DNA from: Bradyrhizobium guangzhouense
GTDB lineage: Bacteria > Pseudomonadota > Alphaproteobacteria > Rhizobiales > Xanthobacteraceae
Direction of reading: 5' to 3'
Assembly (NCBI RefSeq): GCF_004114955.1
Contig: NZ_CP030053.1
Location: 5,208,001-5,272,000, forward strand
Length of the DNA stretch: 64,000 nucleotides
Both the position numbers and the translations under genes were made by a program. Below are positions 27,680-36,971 of this stretch, in pieces. The notes beneath the pieces are model-generated. The model saw nothing but the letters and a program-made list of their open reading frames with translations, did no database searches and had not been told where the DNA came from. The number at the start of each line of letters is the position of its first letter. Position 1 is the first letter of the stretch.

Positions 27680-30385
27680 CTACCTGGCCGCGCCGACCCG
27701 CTTTGTCTCTTGCGCCGCGACCACCTCCGTCGTCGCGATCAGGCGCTTCAGCTCGGGGATGCAGGAGCCGCAATTGGTGCCAGCCTTCAGCTTGGTACCT
27801 ATCTCGGCAGCCGTGCGGGCACCGCTCGCGATGGTGTCGCAGATGGTGCCGCGGCCGACGCCGAAGCAGGCGCAGACAACAGGGCCGGTCGAAGCTGAGC
27901 CTTCGCTGGATTTACCCGACAGCAGCATGCGGCGCTGATCGTCGGTGACGCGATCGGCCGCGAACAGGCTCTTCACCACCTCCCAGTCGCCGGCATCGTG
28001 TGCGGGCCCGACGAACAGGCAGGTCTCGATACGGTCGCCGGAAAACGAAGCCGCGCGGAAAACGCCACCGCCGAAATCGCGGTACTCGGCCACGTCCTCG
28101 CCGGCGACGCGCTCGAGCCAGGTCGGCCAGCGCGACAGATCCGCGTTGTCGGCGAAGAGATAGCCAAAGCCGCCGCTGACCGTGACGCGTGTCCACAGCA
28201 GGTTGGGCGGCAGATTGAACTGTTTTCGCGACAGCGCAAAACCGCGGAAGACGAATTCATACGGCGCGATCGCTGCCGGCGTCGCCTTCGATTCCGGCTG
28301 GCCGGAGAACGGATCGGTGAAGGAGTGCACCAGCGCCCCGACGCGCCCATGCGAGGCGTTCATCGCACTCCAATGGATCGGCGCGAACAGGGTGCCGCGC
28401 TGCTGCCGATCGCTGACGACGGCCTTCAGGATGCACTGACCGTAGTCGGTGGTGATGCGGGCATAGCCGTCGTGAGCAATGCCGTATTTGCCGGCATCGT
28501 CGGGATGGATCTCGACGAAGGGCTCGGGCAGATGCGCGCCCAGCCGCTGGCTGAGGCCGGTACGCGTCATGGTGTGCCACTGGTCGCGAATGCGCCCGGT
28601 ATTGAGCCTCAGGGGACGGGACGGGCCGGTCTCGGCTCGCAGTGACGGCACTTCCGGCGCGACGAAGCGACCCTTGCCGTCATTGGTGAAGAAGCCACCT
28701 TCCGCGAAGAAGCGCTCTCCCGGTTCTGCGCCTGCGCGCGCCGGCCACTGCACCGGCGTCAAGGCGTCGAAATCCTCGTCGGACAGCGACGTCAGGGCGC
28801 CGATGTCGAAATCGCGGCTGCCATTGTTCTCGAAGGCCGAGAGCGCGGCGTGCTCGCGGAAAATATCGGCGGCGGATTTGTAATTGAAGCTGTCGCCGAA
28901 GCCGAGACGCTTGGCGGTCTCGCTGAGAATCCACCAGTCCGGCCGCGCTTCACCCGGCGCCGGCAGGAACGAACGCTGGCGCGAGATGCGGCGCTCGGAA
29001 TTGGTCACCGTGCCCGACTTCTCGCCCCACGCCAGCGCCGGCAGCAGCACATGCGGGCCGGCCTCGACCGTGTCGTTGCTGAGCACGTTCTCGGACACCA
29101 CGAACAGCTCGAGCTTCTTCAGCGCTTCACGCACGAAATCCGCATCGGGCAGCGACACCGCGGGATTGGTGCCCATCACCCACAGCGCCTTGACCTCGCC
29201 GCGGTTGATCGCCTCGAACAGCTGCACCGCCTTCAGCCCCTCATGGGTGGCGATGCGCGGCGCCCTCCAGAACCGCCTGACGCGGTCGATATCCGGGGGT
29301 GTGAAGCCCATGTGTGCGGCAAGCATGTTGGCGAGCCCGCCGACCTCGCGGCCGCCCATCGCATTCGGCTGGCCGGTGAGCGAGAACGGCGACGCGCCGG
29401 GCTTGCCGATGCGGCCCGTGGCGAGATGACAGTTCAGGATCGCGTTGACCTTGTCGGTGCCCTGCGCCGACTGGTTGACGCCCTGGGAGTACAGCGTCAC
29501 GACGCGGGGCGTCTCGCGGAACATCCTGAAGAAGGTGGCGACGTCCTGCTCGGAGAGGCCGGTCGCAAGCGCAGTCGCGGTGACGCTGCCGGCGATGTTG
29601 CGCGCACGCGCCAGCGCGTCGTCGAAGCCCGAGGTGTTACGCGCGACATAGTCCAGATCCAGCGCGCCATTGTCGGCGAGATGCACGAACAGGCCGGAGA
29701 ACAGCGCGGTGTCGGTGCCCGGCTTGAGGCCAAGGAACAAATCGACGTCGCTTGCGGTATCGGTGCGGCGCGGATCGATCACGATCATCCGCGCGCCGCG
29801 CTCGGCGCGGTTCTTCAGCATGCGCTGGAACAGCACCGGATGGCACCAGGCGGCGTTCGAGCCGACGAAAACCAAGAGATCCGCCTGGTCGAGATCCTCA
29901 TAGCAGCCCGGCACGGTGTCGGCACCGAAGGCGCGGCGGTGGCCGGCGACCGAGGACGACATGCAGAGCCGCGAATTGGTGTCGACATTGGCGGTGCCGA
30001 CAAAGCCCTTCATCAGCTTGTTGGCGACGTAATAATCCTCGGTGAGGAGCTGACCGGACAGATAGAATGCGACTGCGTCCGCGCCGTCGCGTGCGACGAT
30101 GTGCTTCATGCGATGCGCGACATGATCGAGCGCGTCACTCCAGGCCACGCGCTCCAGCACGCCCTTGCAGCGGATCATCGGATAGAGCAGCCGGCCCTCC
30201 AGCCCGACGGTCTCACCGAGTGCGGAGCCCTTCGAGCACAGCCGGCCGAAATTGGCGGGATGGTCCGGGTCGCCCGCGATCGCTGCGCCGCCCGCGCCAT
30301 CGGGCGTTGCGAGCACGCCGCAGCCGACGCCGCAATAGGGACAGGTCGTCTTGGTGGTGCGAAGCGTGGGATCGATCGCCGTCAT
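27680..30385 (-). CDS. nasC: Assimilatory nitrate reductase catalytic subunit
   Basis: 901 aa cytosolic molybdenum enzyme reducing nitrate to nitrite. N-terminal [4Fe-4S] ligands Cys15, Cys18, Cys22 and Cys50 ([16 protein letters not shown]); the molybdopterin domains follow ([20 protein letters not shown] with the Mo-ligand Cys, [30 protein letters not shown]). The C-terminus carries an extra BFD-like [2Fe-2S] domain ([16 protein letters not shown] and [15 protein letters not shown]), as in NasA/NasC enzymes fed by a separate flavoprotein. It is the last gene of narK-bjgb-flp-nasC; flp would pass it electrons from NAD(P)H. The spacing to flp is 15 bases. No nitrite reductase gene is in the window. 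Confidence 0.95.
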
Positions 30386-30400: not shown

Positions 30401-31618
30401 TCACGCAGCTTTGGAAGGAAGCGCGAGCGCGCGGCCGAACATCATGTCGGCCCGGATGGCAGCAATCTTCTCGCGGGTGCGGATCAATTCGAGATACCAG
30501 AGCGCGTCGGCGGTCTCGCCGATCAGCACGGCGCCGGTAAGGCATCCGTCTGAAATGACGAGCTTCTTGTAGGTCCCGCGGCGGCGGTCCGACAGCACGA
30601 GGCTCTCGCTGCCCTCACCGCCCATGAAGTCGCCGGCCGAGAACACGCTGACGCCGGACACTTTCAGATTGGTCGAGACCACGCTGCCCTGGTAGGCGGC
30701 GGGGCGGCCACCGAGATGCCTGGCCAGCACCCGCGCCTGCTCATAAGCAGGCTCGACCAGGCCATAGCAGGTGCCGCGATGTTCGGCGCATTCGCCGAGC
30801 GCGTAGATGTCGGGAGACGCCGTCTGCATCACGTCGTTGACGACGATGCCGCGGTTGACCGCGATGCCGGCATCTTTGGCGAGCGCAATGTTGGGCCGGA
30901 TGCCGGCGGCGAATATCACGGCGTCCGCTTCGATGCGGCTGCCGTCGGCCAGCTCCACGGCTTCGACGTGGTGCTCGCCGTGGATGCGGGCGGTGGAGGC
31001 GTTGAGCATGATGCGAATGCCCTTGCGCTCGACCAGCGTCTTGAGCAAATCGGCGGCCGGACCATCGAGCTGACGCTCCATCAGCCGGTCCATCAGATGC
31101 AGCAGGGTGACGGGCGCGCCGGCCTTGGCCAGGCCATAGGCTGCCTCCAGCCCGAGGAGCCCGCCGCCGACCACGACGACGCGCTTCTTCGCTGCCGCCA
31201 GCGTCAGAAGCAGATCGACGTCGCGGGTGTCGCGGAAGGTGTGCACGCCGGCGAGATCGGCACCTGCTACGTTGAGCCGCAGCGGCGTCGAGCCGGTGGC
31301 GAGCACGAGCTTGGAGTATTCCATGCTCTCTTCGCCCGCGATCTTGAGCTCGCGGCGGCCGGTGTCGATCTCGGTGACGCGATAGCCATAGCGCACGGTG
31401 ACGCCGCGATGGCGCCACCAGTCCGCCGGCCGGAGCTCGATCTCGTGCGAGCCGGTCTCGCCGGCCAGCACGGATGAGAGCAGCACTCTGTTGTAAGCGA
31501 GCCGCGGCTCCTCGCCGATCACAGCGACCGCATAACGGCCGAGTGCGGTCTTGGCGAGCTCGTCGACCAGACGCGCGGCTGCCATACCGTTACCGACGAT
31601 GACGAGCGGTTCACTCAC
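30401..31618 (-). CDS. flp: FAD-dependent NAD(P)H oxidoreductase of nitrate assimilation
   Basis: 405 aa pyridine-nucleotide-disulphide-type flavoprotein. FAD motif VIVGNGMAAARLVDELAK, then RLAYNRVLLSSVLAGE, NAD motif VVVVGGGLLGLEAAYGLAKAG, and second FAD motif ASPDIYALGECAEHRG. It resembles the N-terminal flavin half of NirB/NasB and has no Fe-S or sirohaem domain. In Bradyrhizobium Flp is reported to supply electrons both to the nitrate reductase and to the haemoglobin Bjgb, and the operon order here is the same. Ten bases separate it from bjgb. Confidence 0.92.
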   Translation of the reverse strand: MSEPLVIVGNGMAAARLVDELAKTALGRYAVAVIGEEPRLAYNRVLLSSVLAGETGSHEIELRPADWWRHRGVTVRYGYRVTEIDTGRRELKIAGEESMEYSKLVLATGSTPLRLNVAGADLAGVHTFRDTRDVDLLLTLAAAKKRVVVVGGGLLGLEAAYGLAKAGAPVTLLHLMDRLMERQLDGPAADLLKTLVERKGIRIMLNASTARIHGEHHVEAVELADGSRIEADAVIFAAGIRPNIALAKDAGIAVNRGIVVNDVMQTASPDIYALGECAEHRGTCYGLVEPAYEQARVLARHLGGRPAAYQGSVVSTNLKVSGVSVFSAGDFMGGEGSESLVLSDRRRGTYKKLVISDGCLTGAVLIGETADALWYLELIRTREKIAAIRADMMFGRALALPSKAA

Positions 31619-31628
31619 GAGACATCTC

Positions 31629-32057
31629 CTATTCGGCGGCCTGCGCCTGTGGGCCGTAGGCCTCGGAAATCATGTAGCCGGACAAGACGCCGTAAGCGTC
31701 GGTCCAGGCGGTTGCGAGTTCGGGCGTCCAGGCCTCGCCGAGGCCCTTCTCGAGGGTCCACAGCAAGGTCGCGCCGACCACGGGGTAGTGCTCGGCCTTG
31801 GCGCCGTAGCCGACGTGACGCTTGGCGAGCGCCGATGCCGCGGGAAGAATCGTCTCGAGATTGGACAGGCCGCCGACGACGGCGGCGAGCATGCCCATCA
31901 GCTTCTTGCGCTGCTCGGTCATGTCTTCGGGAAACATCGCGCGCACGGACGGAGCGACCTCGAACAAGCGATCGTAGAACAGCTGCGAGGCTGCTTCTGA
32001 AATCGGTGCGACCTTGGAAAAGCTCTGCTGCACGAGGGCGATCTGCTGTGGCGTCAT
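31629..32057 (-). CDS. bjgb: Single-domain haemoglobin Bjgb
   Basis: 142 aa bacterial globin. The fold runs from TPQQIALVQQSFSKVAPIS (A helix) to the H helix; the proximal haem ligand is His81 in AKRHVGYGAKAEHYPVVG, aligning with the KHTSF of flavohaemoglobin Hmp. There is no reductase domain, so an external donor (Flp, next gene) is needed. The family role is nitric oxide detoxification during nitrate assimilation, since nitrite reduction by-products yield NO. The gene is separated from narK by 178 bases holding two hairpin repeats. Confidence 0.94.
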   Translation of the reverse strand: MTPQQIALVQQSFSKVAPISEAASQLFYDRLFEVAPSVRAMFPEDMTEQRKKLMGMLAAVVGGLSNLETILPAASALAKRHVGYGAKAEHYPVVGATLLWTLEKGLGEAWTPELATAWTDAYGVLSGYMISEAYGPQAQAAE

Positions 32058-32188: not shown

Positions 32189-32237
32189 GAGCATGATCTC
32201 GTCGGAAAACCGCTTCACACTTTTCCGGATCATGCTC
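32189..32237. repeat. RIME-like palindromic element
   Basis: Outer arms GAGCATGATC / GATCATGCTC and inner GGAAAAC / TTTTCC around CGCTTCACAC. This matches the rhizobial intergenic mosaic element pattern. Its right end overlaps the last two bases of narK including part of the stop codon, so it is part of the narK mRNA end. Confidence 0.8.
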
Positions 32238-33618
32238 ACACGCGCGCTTCGGCAAGGCTTGGCGCGCCTTCGGCCTGCGAGCTGCGACGCAGGTAGAACC
32301 ACCAGGTCAGCCCCAGGCAGAGGGCGTAGAATGCGAGGAAGATCGCAAGTGCGAGCTGCGGACCGCCGGTCGCAGCGATCGACTTGCCGAAGCTGCTCGG
32401 GATCAGATAGCCGCCGACGGCACCGACCGCGCCGATGAAGCCGACCGCCGCACCGCTCTCGATGCTCGCAGTCTTCAATGCCATCGCGCGCGCCGCATCG
32501 CCCTTGCCGCGCACCTTGAACAGGTTCTCCTCGCGGAAGATCGAGGGGATCATGCGGTAGGTCGAACCGTTGCCGATGCCAGTCGTCAGGAACAGGATCA
32601 GGAACATCGACAGGAAACCGGTGAAGTCCTTCTGCCCGACGAAGTACAGCACGCCGATCGTGGCTGCCGCCATCGCGATGAAGTTCCAGAAGGTGATGAT
32701 CGAGCCGCCGACCTTGTCGGCGAGCCAGCCGCCGAACGGACGCGACAGCGAGCCGACCAGCGGACCGAGGAACGCGATCGAGATCGTCACCGTCGGAAAC
32801 TGGGTCTTGATCAGCAGCGGAAACGCGGCGGAGTAGCCGATGAAGGAGCCGAACGTTCCGATGTAGATGAAGGCCATGATCCAGGTGTGCTTGCGCTTGA
32901 CGATCGCGAGCTGGTTCTTCACCGACGACTTGGCCGAGGTCAGGTTGTTCATGAAGAACACCGCGCCGAACACCGCGAGCGCGATCGGCAGCACCCACAT
33001 CAGGCCCGCGTTCTGCAGATAGACACCGCCGACCGGCGTCGCCTGGAACAGGTTGATGGCGCCAACGGTCATCAGGATCGGGGTCAGCAACTGCACGCTG
33101 GAGACGCCGATGTTGCCGCCGGCGGCATTGAGACCCAGCGCCGAGCCCTTCATCCGGTCCGGGAAGAAGAACGAGATGTTGGTCATGCTGGAGGCGAAAT
33201 TGCCGCCGCCGAGGCCCGCCGTCGAAGCGATCAGCAGCATCAGCCAGAACGGCGTCTCGGGCTGGCTCACGAAGTAGGCGAGCGACAGCGTCGGAATGAA
33301 CAGGATCGCAGCGCTGAAGATGGTCCAGTTGCGACCGCCGAACGTCGTCACCGCAAACGTATAGGGGAAGCGCATCAAGGCGCCGATCAGGCCGGGGACG
33401 GCCACGAGCTGGAACAGCTCATCGGTCGAGTAGTGGAAACCTGCCTGCGGCAGCTTGGTCGCGACGATGCTCCAGATCAGCCACACGGAGAAGCCGATAT
33501 GCTCGGCCACGATCGACCAGATCAGGTTACGCCGGGCGATGGTCTTGCCCGTCGCATTCCAGAATGCCTCATCCTCCGGTCTCCAGTCTGAGATCCAGGT
33601 CGGATTGTCTTCCCTCAT
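32236..33618 (-). CDS. narK: Nitrate/nitrite transporter NarK
   Basis: 460 aa major-facilitator protein with twelve helices. The nitrate-porter signatures are seen twice: GLGGGNFASSMTNISFFFP and TTGIGNGSTYRMIPSIF; LMRFPYTFAVTTFGGRNW carries a conserved substrate Arg. It could import nitrate or export nitrite; in Bradyrhizobium the homologue next to bjgb is described as a nitrite extruder. I start at MREDNPTWISDWRPED (33618; AAAGGGA ahead), not at the longer upstream frame (33678), which lies in the leader. First gene of narK-bjgb-flp-nasC. Confidence 0.93.
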   Translation of the reverse strand: MREDNPTWISDWRPEDEAFWNATGKTIARRNLIWSIVAEHIGFSVWLIWSIVATKLPQAGFHYSTDELFQLVAVPGLIGALMRFPYTFAVTTFGGRNWTIFSAAILFIPTLSLAYFVSQPETPFWLMLLIASTAGLGGGNFASSMTNISFFFPDRMKGSALGLNAAGGNIGVSSVQLLTPILMTVGAINLFQATPVGGVYLQNAGLMWVLPIALAVFGAVFFMNNLTSAKSSVKNQLAIVKRKHTWIMAFIYIGTFGSFIGYSAAFPLLIKTQFPTVTISIAFLGPLVGSLSRPFGGWLADKVGGSIITFWNFIAMAAATIGVLYFVGQKDFTGFLSMFLILFLTTGIGNGSTYRMIPSIFREENLFKVRGKGDAARAMALKTASIESGAAVGFIGAVGAVGGYLIPSSFGKSIAATGGPQLALAIFLAFYALCLGLTWWFYLRRSSQAEGAPSLAEARV

Positions 33619-33729
33619 TGGAAAATCCCTTTCACTAGGAAGGCGCGACACCGACAAATCGCGGACGCAAAGAGGCACGCTCGGGGAGAGCCCCGATTGG
33701 GCGGTGTCACAGATTGGTTGATTGCTTGT

Positions 33730-33747
33730 GACGGCGTCGATGGCGTC
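33730..33747 (-). promoter_or_regulatory. Leader hairpin, possible NasT (ANTAR) recognition element
   Basis: On the minus strand GACGCCATCGACGCCGTC folds into a short stem (GACG/CGTC, one C-C mismatch, then a C-G pair) with the hexanucleotide loop ATCGAC, which has A at position 1 and G at position 4, the rule for ANTAR-protein targets. It lies right at the predicted 5' end of the narK mRNA. The second stem-loop normally needed is not clear. Confidence 0.35.
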
Positions 33748-33758
33748 AGATCCGGTAA

Positions 33759-33774
33759 TTCAAACCTTGTGCCA
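33759..33774 (-). promoter_or_regulatory. Candidate sigma-54 promoter for narK operon
   Basis: Minus strand TGGCACAAGGTTTGAA: the -24 element TGGCAC is perfect and the spacing to -12 is right, but the -12 dinucleotide is GA instead of GC. About 150 bases from the NtrC-like site. Expected leader about 130 bases. Confidence 0.45.
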
Positions 33775-33911
33775 ACGGCAGCAATCGACAAAACTCAATA
33801 TAAAACAGCGACTTAAATTGACTGATGAATCTTTAGGCGAGCCTATAATTGCATCAAACTTCGGCTTCTCGCTCAATTCTTGAATGCCGATTCGCCTGTT
33901 GATTGTGCGTC

Positions 33912-33926
33912 GCACAAGAGTTGTGC
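33912..33926. promoter_or_regulatory. NtrC-type enhancer site
   Basis: GCACAAGAGTTGTGC matches GCAC-N7-GTGC, the core of the NtrC consensus. It lies about 140 bases from the FNT promoter and about 150 from the narK candidate promoter, a usual enhancer distance on both sides. An overlapping perfect palindrome, TTGTGCGTCGCACAA (33903-33917), adds half-sites. Confidence 0.6.
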
Positions 33927-34051
33927 AGGCGCCCGCTTTTTCGCCATAGCCCCGATTTGGCGGCCCCGCGCGAGCAAATTCGCGTGGAGCAATCCCCAGC
34001 AAACCTGGCGCTGAACCCCGCCCAGACGGCCGACCCAGGCCACCGCCCCAT

Positions 34052-34067
34052 TGGCACATCGATTGCT
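34052..34067 (+). promoter_or_regulatory. Sigma-54 (-24/-12) promoter of the FNT gene
   Basis: TGGCACATCGATTGCT: perfect TGGCAC at -24, ten bases between GG and GC, and TTGCT at -12. The predicted start near 34078 gives an unusually long leader of about 235 bases before the ATG at 34313. Confidence 0.7.
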
Positions 34068-34312
34068 TCATGTCGTGCAGGTCAACGATGACTGCAGTGC
34101 GCCCGGGGCATCGCGCTTCCGACGGCCATGGGGATAGCGAAGCCTGTTCGCCGGACCGCCGGGGGCGCGGTCATCGTGACGCTATCCCAGTGCATGCCGA
34201 CATCGCGCAGGTCGCGCGTTCCTGCCCCGCGGGATGCGGTTCATCGGGGTGACCAGGGCGCGATCCGGCAACGGGCGCGCCTCAAGGGTTCACACGCACA
34301 AAGGAACTGACG

Positions 34313-35152
34313 ATGTCGTATCTCGCGCCTTCGGAATTCGTCACCAAGATGGTGGACGCTGGGGAATCCAAGATCTTCATGTCCACCCGGGATACGGTCA
34401 TCCGCGCCTACATGGCCGGCGCCATCCTGGCGCTTGCGGCATGGTTCGCCGTGACCATCAACGTCAATACCGGCCAGCCGATCGTTGGCGCGCTGCTGTT
34501 TCCGGTCGGCTTCTGCATGCTCTATCTGCTGGGCTTCGACCTTCTGACCGGCGTCTTCGTGCTCTCCCCGCTCGCCCTGCTCGACAAGCGGCCCGGCGTC
34601 ACGCTCGGCGGCGTCCTGCGCAACTGGGGTCTCGTCTTCATCGGCAATTTCGGCGGCGCGCTGACCGTGGCCTTCATGATGGCGTTCGTGACGACCTTCG
34701 GCTTCACCCAGGACCCGGACAAGGTCGGCACCGCGATCGGCAATATCGGCGAAGGCCGTACCCTTGGCTATGCCGCACACGGCGCCGCCGGCATGGCGAC
34801 GCTGTTCATCCGCGGCATGCTCTGCAACTGGATGGTCTCGACCGGCGTCGTCGGCGCGATGATCTCGACCACTGTCCCGGGCAAGGTCATCGCGATGTGG
34901 ATGCCGATCCTGGTGTTCTTCTACATGGTGTTCGAGCACTCGGTGGTGAACATGTTCCTGTTCCCGTCGGGGCTGATGCTGCACGCCAAGTTCTCGATCC
35001 TGGATTATTTCATCTGGAACGAGATCCCGACCGTGCTGGGCAACCTCGTCGGCGGCCTCGCCTTCACCGGCCTCACCCTCTACACCACGCATGTGCTGAC
35101 CAAGCCCAAGCGTGAGGTCGCGGCGAAGAGCCAGCCGCGCGCAGCGGCCTGA
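34313..35152 (+). CDS. Formate/nitrite transporter (FNT) family channel
   Basis: 279 aa pentameric-channel protein of the FocA/NirC family with six helices. Family landmarks: YMAGAILALAAWFAVTI, GALLFPVGFCMLYLLGFDLL (lower constriction), RNWGLVFIGNFGGAL, FIRGMLCNWMVSTGV (with the conserved Cys-Asn-Trp) and MVFEHSVVNMFLFPSGL carrying the pore His. By position in a nitrate-assimilation locus it is more likely a nitrite channel (NirC-like) than a formate channel. AAGGA precedes the ATG. A sigma-54 promoter lies upstream, and the phosphatase-kinase gene begins 85 bases downstream. Confidence 0.9.
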   Translation: MSYLAPSEFVTKMVDAGESKIFMSTRDTVIRAYMAGAILALAAWFAVTINVNTGQPIVGALLFPVGFCMLYLLGFDLLTGVFVLSPLALLDKRPGVTLGGVLRNWGLVFIGNFGGALTVAFMMAFVTTFGFTQDPDKVGTAIGNIGEGRTLGYAAHGAAGMATLFIRGMLCNWMVSTGVVGAMISTTVPGKVIAMWMPILVFFYMVFEHSVVNMFLFPSGLMLHAKFSILDYFIWNEIPTVLGNLVGGLAFTGLTLYTTHVLTKPKREVAAKSQPRAAA

Positions 35153-35237
35153 GCGATCGCTATTCAAACGAGAGAGTGTCGTCCGACAAGGGAGCTTTGC
35201 CTGCTAAGGTGAGGCTCCCTTTGCATTGGTGGCGAGG

Positions 35238-36971
35238 ATGGGCCGGGGCTTGCAAATCTCGATCGGGCAGCACTCCGACAAGGGGCGCAAGCCGGTCAAC
35301 CAGGACTTCCACGGCGCGCTGATCCCGATCGAGCCGCTGCTGAGCCTGAAGGGCATCGCCGTCGTGCTGGCCGACGGCATCTCGAGCAGCGCGGTGAGCC
35401 AGGTGGCGAGCGAGTCGGCGGTCAAGAGCTTCCTGACCGACTATTACTGCACCTCCGAATCCTGGACGGTGAAGAATTCGGCGCGGCGCGTCCTGGAAGC
35501 GACCAACTCCTGGCTGCACGCGGAAACGCGGCGCAGCCAATATGCCTACGATCGCGACAAGGGCTACGTCTGCACCTTCACGGCCATGGTCGTCAAATCG
35601 ACCATGGCCCACATCTTTCACGTCGGCGATTGCCGGATCTACCGCGTCGCCGGCAAGGCCCTCGAGCAGCTCACCGACGATCACCGGATCATCGTCTCGT
35701 CCGAGCAGACCTATCTCGGCCGCGCGCTCGGGATCAATCCGCAAATCGAAATCGATTATCAGGCCCTACAGGTCGAACCAGGCGACATTTTCCTGCTGGC
35801 AACGGACGGCGCCTACGAATTCGTCGATCATCGATTCGTCACGAGCACCCTCGCGGCCTCCGCCGCCGATCTCGACGCGGCCGCGCAAACCATCGTCGAG
35901 GAAGCCTACCGGCGCGGCAGCGACGACAACATCACCGTGCAGATCCTGCGCATCGACGGGGTGCCGCTGGCGGGCTCGGCCGATATTTTCGGTGGCACGG
36001 CCGAGCTGCCGCTGCCGCCCCTGCTGGAGCCGCGCGCCTTGTTCGACGGCTACCGCATCGTCCGCGAAGTGCATGCCTCCAGCCGCAGCCACATCTACCT
36101 CGCCGTCGACACCGAGACCGGGGAGATGGTCGCGCTGAAGATTCCGTCGATCGATCTGCGCGACGACCCGGCCTATCTGAGGCGCTTCCTGATGGAGGAG
36201 TGGATCGCGCGCCGGATCGACAGCCCCCACGTCCTGAAACCGTGCTCCCGGTCCAGGCGGCGCAACTACCTCTACGTCGCAACCGAGTTCATCGAGGGGC
36301 AGACGCTGAGGCAGTGGATGCTGGACAATCCGCGACCCGACCTCGAGACCGTGCGCAGCATCGTCGACCAGGTCGCGGCGGGCCTGCGCGCCTTCCATCG
36401 CATGGAAATGCTGCATCAGGATTTGAGGCCCGACAACATCCTAATCGACAAGACCGGCACGGCAAAGATCATCGACTTCGGAGCGGTCAAGGTCGCCGGC
36501 GTCGTCGAGGCAGCGCCCAATCCTGATGATGCCGAGATCCTCGGCACGGTTCAGTACACCGCACCGGAATATTTTCTCGGTGAAGGCGGCTCGCCGCGAT
36601 CGGACATGTTCTCGCTGGCAAGCGTCTGCTACCAGATGCTGACCGGAGAGCTACCTTACGGCGCTCAGATCGCGCGGATCAAAGGACGGTCGGATGCCTG
36701 GAAGCTCAGGTATCGCCCGGCCAGCCACGACGACCGTGCCGTCCCCGTCTGGATCGACGGTGCGCTGCGCAGGGCGCTGCATCCCGATCCCAACAAGCGC
36801 CACGAGGACCTGTTCGAATTCACCTACGAACTCAGGAACCCTAACCCAGCCTATCTCGGCACGCCGACCACGCCCCTGATCGAGCGCAATCCGCTGCTGT
36901 TCTGGAAGCTGACAACGGTGACGCTGGCCTGCGCCGTCGTCGCGTTACTCGCCCTGTTGCACGCCCGCTAG
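35238..36971 (+). CDS. PP2C phosphatase - Ser/Thr kinase fusion protein
   Basis: 577 aa. Residues about 5-235 are a PP2C phosphatase: DKGRKPVNQD, VVLADGISSSAVSQ, HVGDCRIYRV, LLATDGAYEF and SDDNITVQIL supply metal-binding acids. Residues about 265-535 are a protein kinase: ALKIPS (Lys), HQDLRPDNILID (catalytic loop), IIDFGAVKV (DFG) and YTAPEYF (APE). The glycine-rich loop is degenerate (REVHASSRSHIYL) and the PP2C DGxxG motif reads DGISS. A single C-terminal helix (KLTTVTLACAVVALLALL) anchors it, with both domains in the cytosol. Same arrangement beside nitrate/nitrite transport genes is known in other proteobacteria. An in-frame TTG at 35226 with AAGGTGAGG ahead is an alternative start. Confidence 0.88.
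   Translation: MGRGLQISIGQHSDKGRKPVNQDFHGALIPIEPLLSLKGIAVVLADGISSSAVSQVASESAVKSFLTDYYCTSESWTVKNSARRVLEATNSWLHAETRRSQYAYDRDKGYVCTFTAMVVKSTMAHIFHVGDCRIYRVAGKALEQLTDDHRIIVSSEQTYLGRALGINPQIEIDYQALQVEPGDIFLLATDGAYEFVDHRFVTSTLAASAADLDAAAQTIVEEAYRRGSDDNITVQILRIDGVPLAGSADIFGGTAELPLPPLLEPRALFDGYRIVREVHASSRSHIYLAVDTETGEMVALKIPSIDLRDDPAYLRRFLMEEWIARRIDSPHVLKPCSRSRRRNYLYVATEFIEGQTLRQWMLDNPRPDLETVRSIVDQVAAGLRAFHRMEMLHQDLRPDNILIDKTGTAKIIDFGAVKVAGVVEAAPNPDDAEILGTVQYTAPEYFLGEGGSPRSDMFSLASVCYQMLTGELPYGAQIARIKGRSDAWKLRYRPASHDDRAVPVWIDGALRRALHPDPNKRHEDLFEFTYELRNPNPAYLGTPTTPLIERNPLLFWKLTTVTLACAVVALLALLHAR

Follow-up and report, generated by a model that had tools for sequence, protein, structure and literature searches.

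How can one intergenic region control two divergently transcribed operons, and which signals would it read? The question arises in the window analysed here, a 64,000-nucleotide stretch of an 8.14 Mb Bradyrhizobium guangzhouense genome (two contigs; among its glnK proteins is one with the same sequence as in Bradyrhizobium rifense), where the start codons of narK (ATG 33618, - strand) and of a formate/nitrite channel gene, FNT (ATG 34313, + strand), are separated by 694 bases that hold all of the regulatory sites noted. On the minus strand, narK (32236..33618, a nitrate/nitrite MFS transporter assigned by PF07690 and orthologues) is followed by bjgb (31629..32057, single-domain haemoglobin, PF00042), flp (30401..31618, FAD/NAD(P) oxidoreductase, PF07992) and nasC (27680..30385, assimilatory nitrate reductase, PF00384/PF01568/PF04879/PF04324), in the order described for Bradyrhizobium. 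On the plus strand, FNT (34313..35152, PF01226) precedes a PP2C phosphatase-Ser/Thr kinase fusion (35226..36971, PF13672 + PF00069); in Bradyrhizobium sp. DOA9, prkC adjoins fnt, judged by locus tag (PMC13207237). Eighteen loci with the divergent FNT-narK order, 17 of them besides the window's own, were compared; they average 71% identity to the window over 700 bases. A first-pass annotation had proposed that one NtrC-like enhancer could switch on both operons through two opposed -24/-12 promoters.

Both promoter elements are present as that annotation read them. In particular, the FNT operon carries the element TGGCACATCGATTGCT (TGGCAC-N5-TTGCT, 34052..34067, + strand), which is the only TGGCACN5TTGCW in the window, against 0.01 expected, and which has the sigma-54 form, with GG at -24, GC at -12 and ten bases between; its C at -12 is base 34066. 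Facing away from it, the narK operon carries TGGCACAAGGTTTGAA (TGGCAC-N5-TTGAA, 33774 to 33759, - strand), where an A, at 33760, occupies the -12 position that usually holds C. Predicted transcription starts, taken as 12 bases past the -12 base, are ~34078 for FNT and 33748 for narK. The two opposed promoters lie ~280 bases apart and keep different -12 bases, A at narK and C at FNT. To compare relatives, loci were collected by protein and not by promoter pattern: there are 30 FNT loci, one of them the window's own, of which 26 entered the alignment (L076, L080, L081 and L083 were left out for their longer leaders), and a protein search over 80 genomes gave 30 narK loci, of which 23, again including the window's, were used for upstream analysis (L032-L038, at 51-54% identity, were left out).

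The -12 bases are conserved while the spacers between the boxes vary. At FNT, C at -12 occurs in all 30 loci, in 8 distinct sites with differing 5-base spacers, and the element has 99.7% identity to the window over the 18 divergent loci. At narK, TGGCA[CT]N5TTGAA occurs in 23 of 23 upstream regions in 11 distinct versions, and over the divergent loci its identity is 79%, with the boxes kept and the 5-base spacer varying. The first-pass annotation had correctly read GA instead of GC at narK; as a flaw, the description does not hold, since A is the kept form at narK/nrtA and the usual one at glnK. The A is not universal, as two of the 26 sites opposed to FNT read TTGTT (L077, L078). The narK element is nonetheless not a canonical member of its class: with GA in 23 of 23 loci it lacks the GC of sigma-54 promoters; documented exceptions with A exist, and we say only that it would work like a sigma-54 promoter.

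Searches across 265 genomes of the genus extend this split. The composite TGGCAY-N5-TTGMA-N8..14-GACGNCANNGNNG occurs in 253 of them, its reversed-pattern control had no occurrence among the matches listed, and the same composite with TTGCW in place of TTGMA occurs in a single genome, where the match is one TTGCT followed by another hairpin sequence. Because any TTGCA would also have matched the TTGCW search, all TTGMA composites are TTGAA. When the -12 base is left free, an FNT-type composite occurs in 199 of the 265 genomes (TTGC in the matches listed, read by eye), and an FNT homologue of any kind in 242. Both the narK and the FNT composite patterns fixed A1 and G4 of the leader loop discussed below and are thus no independent evidence for that loop. 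Many genomes have two TTGAA composites on one strand, mostly ~3.45 kb and up to ~4.2 kb apart among the matches listed; the gene order of B. diazoefficiens, where nrtABC immediately precedes narK (PMC4724949), suggests that they are the promoters of nrtA and narK. In many genus genomes (e.g. G086:C1:2220473-2225276), FNT is divergent from the upstream TTGAA composite, ~3.45 kb before the narK copy, so that the FNT-narK junction of the window probably arose through loss of nrtABC. Within the window's own genome, TGGCAYN5TTGAA has 11 sites and TGGCACN5TTGCW has 18; 16 of the 19 inspected (11 and 8, respectively) fall inside some open reading frame of at least 120 aa, and these genome-wide counts were therefore not used as evidence.

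The base at -12 has a wider distribution among nitrogen genes. In a sample of 80 glnK loci from named records, which are the best 80 of 583 relatives and not a random draw, a -24/-12 element lies within 350 bases upstream in 79 (L160 has almost no upstream sequence), and its -12 base, which was left unscored, is A in 73, T in 4 and C in 2. In a downstream control stretch, an element was present in 11 of the 80 loci, and no base predominated at -12 (A 3, T 3, G 3, C 2). Since A dominates at glnK, it is not peculiar to narK. Of the four PII genes of the genome, two have TGGCAC-N5-TTGAT upstream, and a third, glnB-like, has TGGCATAGACCCTGCT, which is also the site listed for DOA9 glnB (PMC13207237); C at -12 therefore occurs among nitrogen genes too. 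Published work describes A at -12 as "striking exceptions", found in 9 of 186 predicted Rhizobiales promoters, such as TGGCACGAGTTTTGAA of M. loti nifHDK, in which A replaces C as it does in narK (PMC3538637). In contrast to those nifH and fdxN exceptions, A is here the regular base at narK/nrtA and glnK, as C is at the opposed FNT promoter. No description of a regular A at -12 of glnK or narK was found in the literature searched, which mostly excludes subscription papers. The genome also holds a second FNT gene (PF01226, 218 bits; L043:1500-2534, G000:C1 ~3661037) that follows the NasT-NasS-like pair described below and has TGGCACACTCCTTGAA upstream, with A at -12; no A1/G4 hexaloop was found near it.

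Between the two promoters, the proposed enhancer turned out to be half of a larger site. The GCAC-N7-GTGC motif of the first-pass annotation is present at 33912..33926, but as a pattern it is no more frequent than chance (2 in the window, 2.06 expected), and it forms the right half of a 33-bp double site, GCCT-N7-GTGC-GTC-GCAC-N7-GTGC, at 33894..33926, with the core palindrome TTGTGCGTCGCACAA at 33903..33917. Over the 18 divergent loci, the core has 98% identity to the window, compared with 87% for the motif first noted and 55% and 64% for the stretches between enhancer and promoters; it is this conservation, and not the rarity of the pattern, that places the central site above chance. GTGC-N3-GCAC occurs in 23 of 23 narK and 26 of 30 FNT upstream regions, the other four FNT loci having no strict core. 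Two FNT loci without GTGC-N3-GCAC (L080 and L083) have, ~430 nt upstream of the gene, CTGTGCATCTGCACAAAT, which is the half-sites with one extra base between them. Read on the narK strand, the site is in most of the 23 loci a full or near palindrome of 33 bases, of the type GCTCAATCCTTGTGCGNCGCACAAGGATTGAGC; outer arms in relatives are GCTC...GAGC or GCCC...GGGC, and in the FNT-narK group they are GCCC or GCAC and GGGC or AGGC around an unchanged core. The general form is GCNC-N7-GTGC-N3-GCAC-N7-GNGC; it can be split into two GCNC-N7-GNGC-like pairs whose centres are 18 bp apart.

The nearly equal spacing reported in the first pass holds in the window, where the centre of the core lies ~142 bp from the FNT -24 box and ~138 bp from that of narK. 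Across loci, the FNT-side and narK-side distances are 112/112 in three loci of the FNT-nrtA type (L065, L079, L084) and unequal in three others (L074, 132/114; L075, 146/112; L082, 130/114), which shows that equal spacing is not a rule; upstream of narK alone, L014-L031 have distances of 112 to 115, and L012 has 137. Dimer sites of the NtrC type lie upstream of the promoter and are usually paired. In Bradyrhizobium-like genomes, TGCCC-N7-GAGCA-like sites occur ~160 bases upstream of the glnK -24 box, and GC[ACT]C-N7-G[AGT]GC occurs in a fixed 25-base interval upstream of glnK in 10 of 79 loci, compared with 0-1 of 79 in six control intervals, which supports reading the arms of the double site as NtrC half-sites. 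By sequence likeness, then, the double site is a putative NtrC target. Genome-wide, TTGTGCNNNGCACAA with at most one mismatch has 18 places, compared with 3 for the reversed pattern, and the exact core recurs at L085 (G000:C1:3163880) and L087 (G000:C1:6647196), where no -24/-12 match lies within 1.5 kb (3-kb locus); given these copies, the core may also serve proteins other than NtrC. At L085, a one-mismatch copy starts 29 bp past the exact one.

Downstream of each promoter, the leader begins with a hairpin whose loop resembles a target of ANTAR proteins. In the narK leader, the P1 hairpin UGACGCC-AUCGAC-GCCGUCA (33729..33748, - strand) has one C.C mismatch in its stem, and the predicted +1 is its first base; in the FNT leader, the P1 hairpin GCAG(G)UC-AACGAU-GACUGC (34076..34096, + strand) has one bulged or G-U stem base in the window, and the predicted +1 falls in its foot. 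Both leaders have a hexaloop with A at position 1, G at position 4 and a C-G closing pair. ANTAR proteins recognise hexaloops with these two bases (PMC3369931, PMC7496416), and NasR selects the C-G closing pair in vitro (PMC7496416). An A1/G4 hexaloop on at least 4 pairs, with a loop offset of 14-21 after the -12 box, occurs in 23 of 23 narK and 28 of 30 FNT leaders, compared with 1 of 79 glnK controls; with at least 3 pairs, the numbers are 23 of 23, 30 of 30 and 2 of 79. Letter shuffles of the window's leaders give such a hairpin in 0.7% (narK) and 2.6% (FNT) of cases, where FNT leaders were scored for shuffles and spacing at 3 pairs and the others at 4. Across the loops, positions 2, 3, 5 and 6 vary and positions 1 and 4 stay A and G.

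Over the divergent loci, the narK hairpin has 93% identity to the window and the FNT P1 stretch 79%. The two most conserved blocks of the FNT leader are P1 and its reverse complement ~90 bases downstream; the latter stretch, 34165-34180, has 97% identity, and within it the conserved block GGTCATCGTGAC (34169..34180, + strand), a near reverse complement of FNT P1, occupies invariant alignment columns and could possibly compete with P1 through a long-range helix. Neither FNT P1 nor the P1/anti-P1 helix covaried above the level of shuffles, and the pairing is accordingly argued from position and loop conservation. Further features lie downstream in the narK leader. An additional A1/G4 hexaloop hairpin, UUCCU-AGUGAA-AGGGA (33626-33641, - strand), overlaps the likely narK ribosome-binding site, with AGCGAA as the corresponding loop in L010, L011 and L013, and a long imperfect hairpin with 18-nt arms, 83% complementary, spans 33647-33708 (- strand). 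A search of Rfam with 33400-34500 gave 2 matches at E <=10, both below their gathering scores (the best was Hrs13, with 17.4 of 52 bits) and attributable to chance.

The genome encodes the proteins that such a region would need. One protein scores above the family cut-off for NtrC, there are two RpoN genes, and a single PF03861 match (C1:3659548) identifies an ANTAR protein of 196 aa, with a receiver and an ANTAR domain, whose gene overlaps that of a 387-aa NMT1_2 protein. From their domain make-up, which is also the source of the names used here, these two appear to be a NasT-NasS-like pair.

Alternative readings exist for each DNA element. If the TTGAA of narK were a decayed or coincidental sigma-54 site, the operon would be read from another promoter, and C at -12 has indeed been described as almost invariant (PMC3538637); this is highly improbable, however, as the A is maintained across narK/nrtA and usual at glnK, as the nifH genes of M. 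loti, R. etli and R. leguminosarum and fdxN of B. japonicum have been reported to carry A at -12 (PMC3538637), and as no sigma-70-like site was found in 33500-34500. It is unlikely, though less so, that the promoters are real and the palindrome is bound by RegR, NtrX or an unknown activator, with NtrC acting elsewhere or indirectly. This would agree with the activation of narK-bjgb-flp-nasC by RegR under denitrifying conditions in B. diazoefficiens, where a putative box lies upstream of narK (PMC6759348), and with the two exact cores that have no -24/-12 element; against it, the RegR consensus matches no better than in shuffles (best 8 of 11 fixed letters, with 267 of 300 shuffles reaching at least 8), the outer half-sites look like those found in a fixed position upstream of glnK, and the location of the palindrome, flanked by two -24/-12 elements, suits a sigma-54 enhancer. 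A FixK-like site, TTGANNNNNNTCAA, was tried and set aside; its best match had a raw count of 7 of 8 fixed bases. The two pairs with centres 18 bp apart might also act separately, as overlapping enhancers in which one NtrC dimer pair serves narK and the other FNT. This is quite unlikely, as the inner core, and not the half first noted, is best conserved, and the double site also lies upstream of narK where no FNT is present in the 1.5-kb flank (L014-L028), and there the two halves would seem to act on a single promoter.

The leader hairpins, in turn, might be initial transcribed sequence that matters for start-up or mRNA stability, rather than NasT targets. The stem of narK P1 is nearly invariant and the FNT helices do not covary beyond shuffles, so that the pairing is a prediction. 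Moreover, the two-hairpin plan of the E. faecalis eut leaders, in which a linker of 5-12 bases separates P1 from a second hairpin that overlaps a terminator (PMC3369931, PMC7496416), was not found in the window: no second ANTAR hairpin lies 5-12 nt after P1, and 33500-34500 has no terminator-like site. Of the 30 FNT leaders, 16, not including the window's, have another, weak A1/G4 loop at an offset of 30-55. A leader that rests mainly on one hairpin has a precedent in Paracoccus, where the HI hairpin is needed for growth on nitrate and mutation of HII has little effect with nitrate (PMC5424462). We consider the start-up or stability explanation improbable: loop positions 1 and 4 are fixed as A and G while the others vary, the loops are closed by C-G as NasR selects (PMC7496416), and the hairpin occurs on nitrate genes and is nearly absent (1 of 79) from glnK leaders behind the same promoter type.

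Overall, the elements, positions and conservation observed here, together with the NtrC, RpoN and NasT-NasS-like pair that the genome encodes, point to a bidirectional, two-input switch for nitrate assimilation, in which sigma-54 and an NtrC-type enhancer would act first and NasT would then act on the leaders; we give this reading a probability of about 0.7. When nitrogen is short, phosphorylated NtrC would bind the double site (33894-33926) and loop to either side, thereby opening sigma-54 polymerase at the narK (A) and FNT (C) promoters, and each transcript would begin at its ANTAR-type hexaloop hairpin. When nitrate or nitrite is present, NasS would free NasT, NasT would bind the hairpin, and polymerase would continue into narK-bjgb-flp-nasC and FNT-kinase, with expression expected only at low nitrogen with nitrate present. 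Both gene sets are thus probably switched on together under these two conditions. We infer which protein binds what, where transcription starts and how a leader would block expression without NasT. Several observations count against the switch, including the exact core at L085 and L087, the unequal spacing elsewhere, the four FNT loci with no strict core, the failure to find a second ANTAR hairpin or a terminator in the window, the 79% identity of FNT P1, the FNT covariation that stays within shuffles and the narK promoter without C at -12. The initial proposal of one enhancer between two promoters stands as an opposed sigma-54-type pair around one conserved site, to which NtrC would bind; its switch-on under nitrogen limitation appears right in outline and missed the leader layer, and because both leaders have A1/G4 hairpins and the genome has an ANTAR protein, nitrate should matter as well.

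In B. diazoefficiens, NtrC and RpoN have reportedly been connected with the nitrate/nitrite reductases (nasC) by Lopez et al. 2017. In Bradyrhizobium sp. DOA9, rpoN mutants have lowered fnt, prkC, nrtA, nas genes and amtB, and the predicted RpoN sites are CGGCAGGCCGCCCGC for fnt and prkC, CGGGGGTTCCCCCGT for nrtA and AGGGGTCCCGGCTGT for amtB (PMC13207237). Compared from the published table, these assigned sites are unlike the conserved elements found here and, judged by sequence, may be misassigned. The narK leader of B. diazoefficiens has predicted NasT-recognisable hairpins (PMC6759348), and Cabrera et al., as cited in PMC6759348, found that loss of NasT reduced narK during assimilation. Denitrifying conditions gave the opposite result, with increased narK, bjgb and flp in a nasT mutant (PMC6759348), which counts against simple antitermination.

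The closest known operon is narK-bjgb-flp-nasC of B. diazoefficiens, which has the same four genes in the same order (PMC4724949, PMC6759348). There, nrtABC lies immediately upstream of narK with its own promoter (PMC4724949), in contrast to the window, where FNT-kinase is divergent and one enhancer lies between; the accessible text of PMC4724949 and PMC6759348 makes no mention of an A/C split at -12 or of an FNT leader hairpin. Similar to the arrangement proposed here, nasF of Klebsiella oxytoca is controlled by an ANTAR protein, NasR, on an A1/G4 hexaloop leader (PMC3369931, PMC7496416), and Paracoccus nas combines NasST with general nitrogen control by NtrBC (PMC5424462). The nasF leader has two adjacent hairpins and a terminator, whereas each leader of the window shows a single clear hairpin at the predicted +1, and the search of 33500-34500 for intrinsic terminators gave none. 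Unlike both nasF and Paracoccus nas, the window would place two operons under one enhancer. Dual nitrogen/nitrate control is therefore already known as a kind; what is new is the combination of a double enhancer in the centre, a pair of sigma-54 promoters that keep different bases at -12, and two A1/G4 hairpins at +1.

A broader interpretation, which we put forward tentatively as a possibility, is that the -12 base is a kept selector. Hyphomicrobiales would then have an A-type (TTGAW) sigma-54 class at narK, nrtA and glnK, distinct from C-type promoters such as that of FNT; two opposed promoters could be driven from one enhancer and still differ in strength, tightness or preference for an RpoN paralogue, and both leaders would be minimal single-hairpin NasT switches at the first transcribed base. 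Scans with the sigma-54 consensus require GC at -12 and would miss such an A class. If the class is real, the nitrogen-control regulons of rhizobia need to be re-read, and the role of the -12 base could be tested at a natural promoter pair with a common enhancer.
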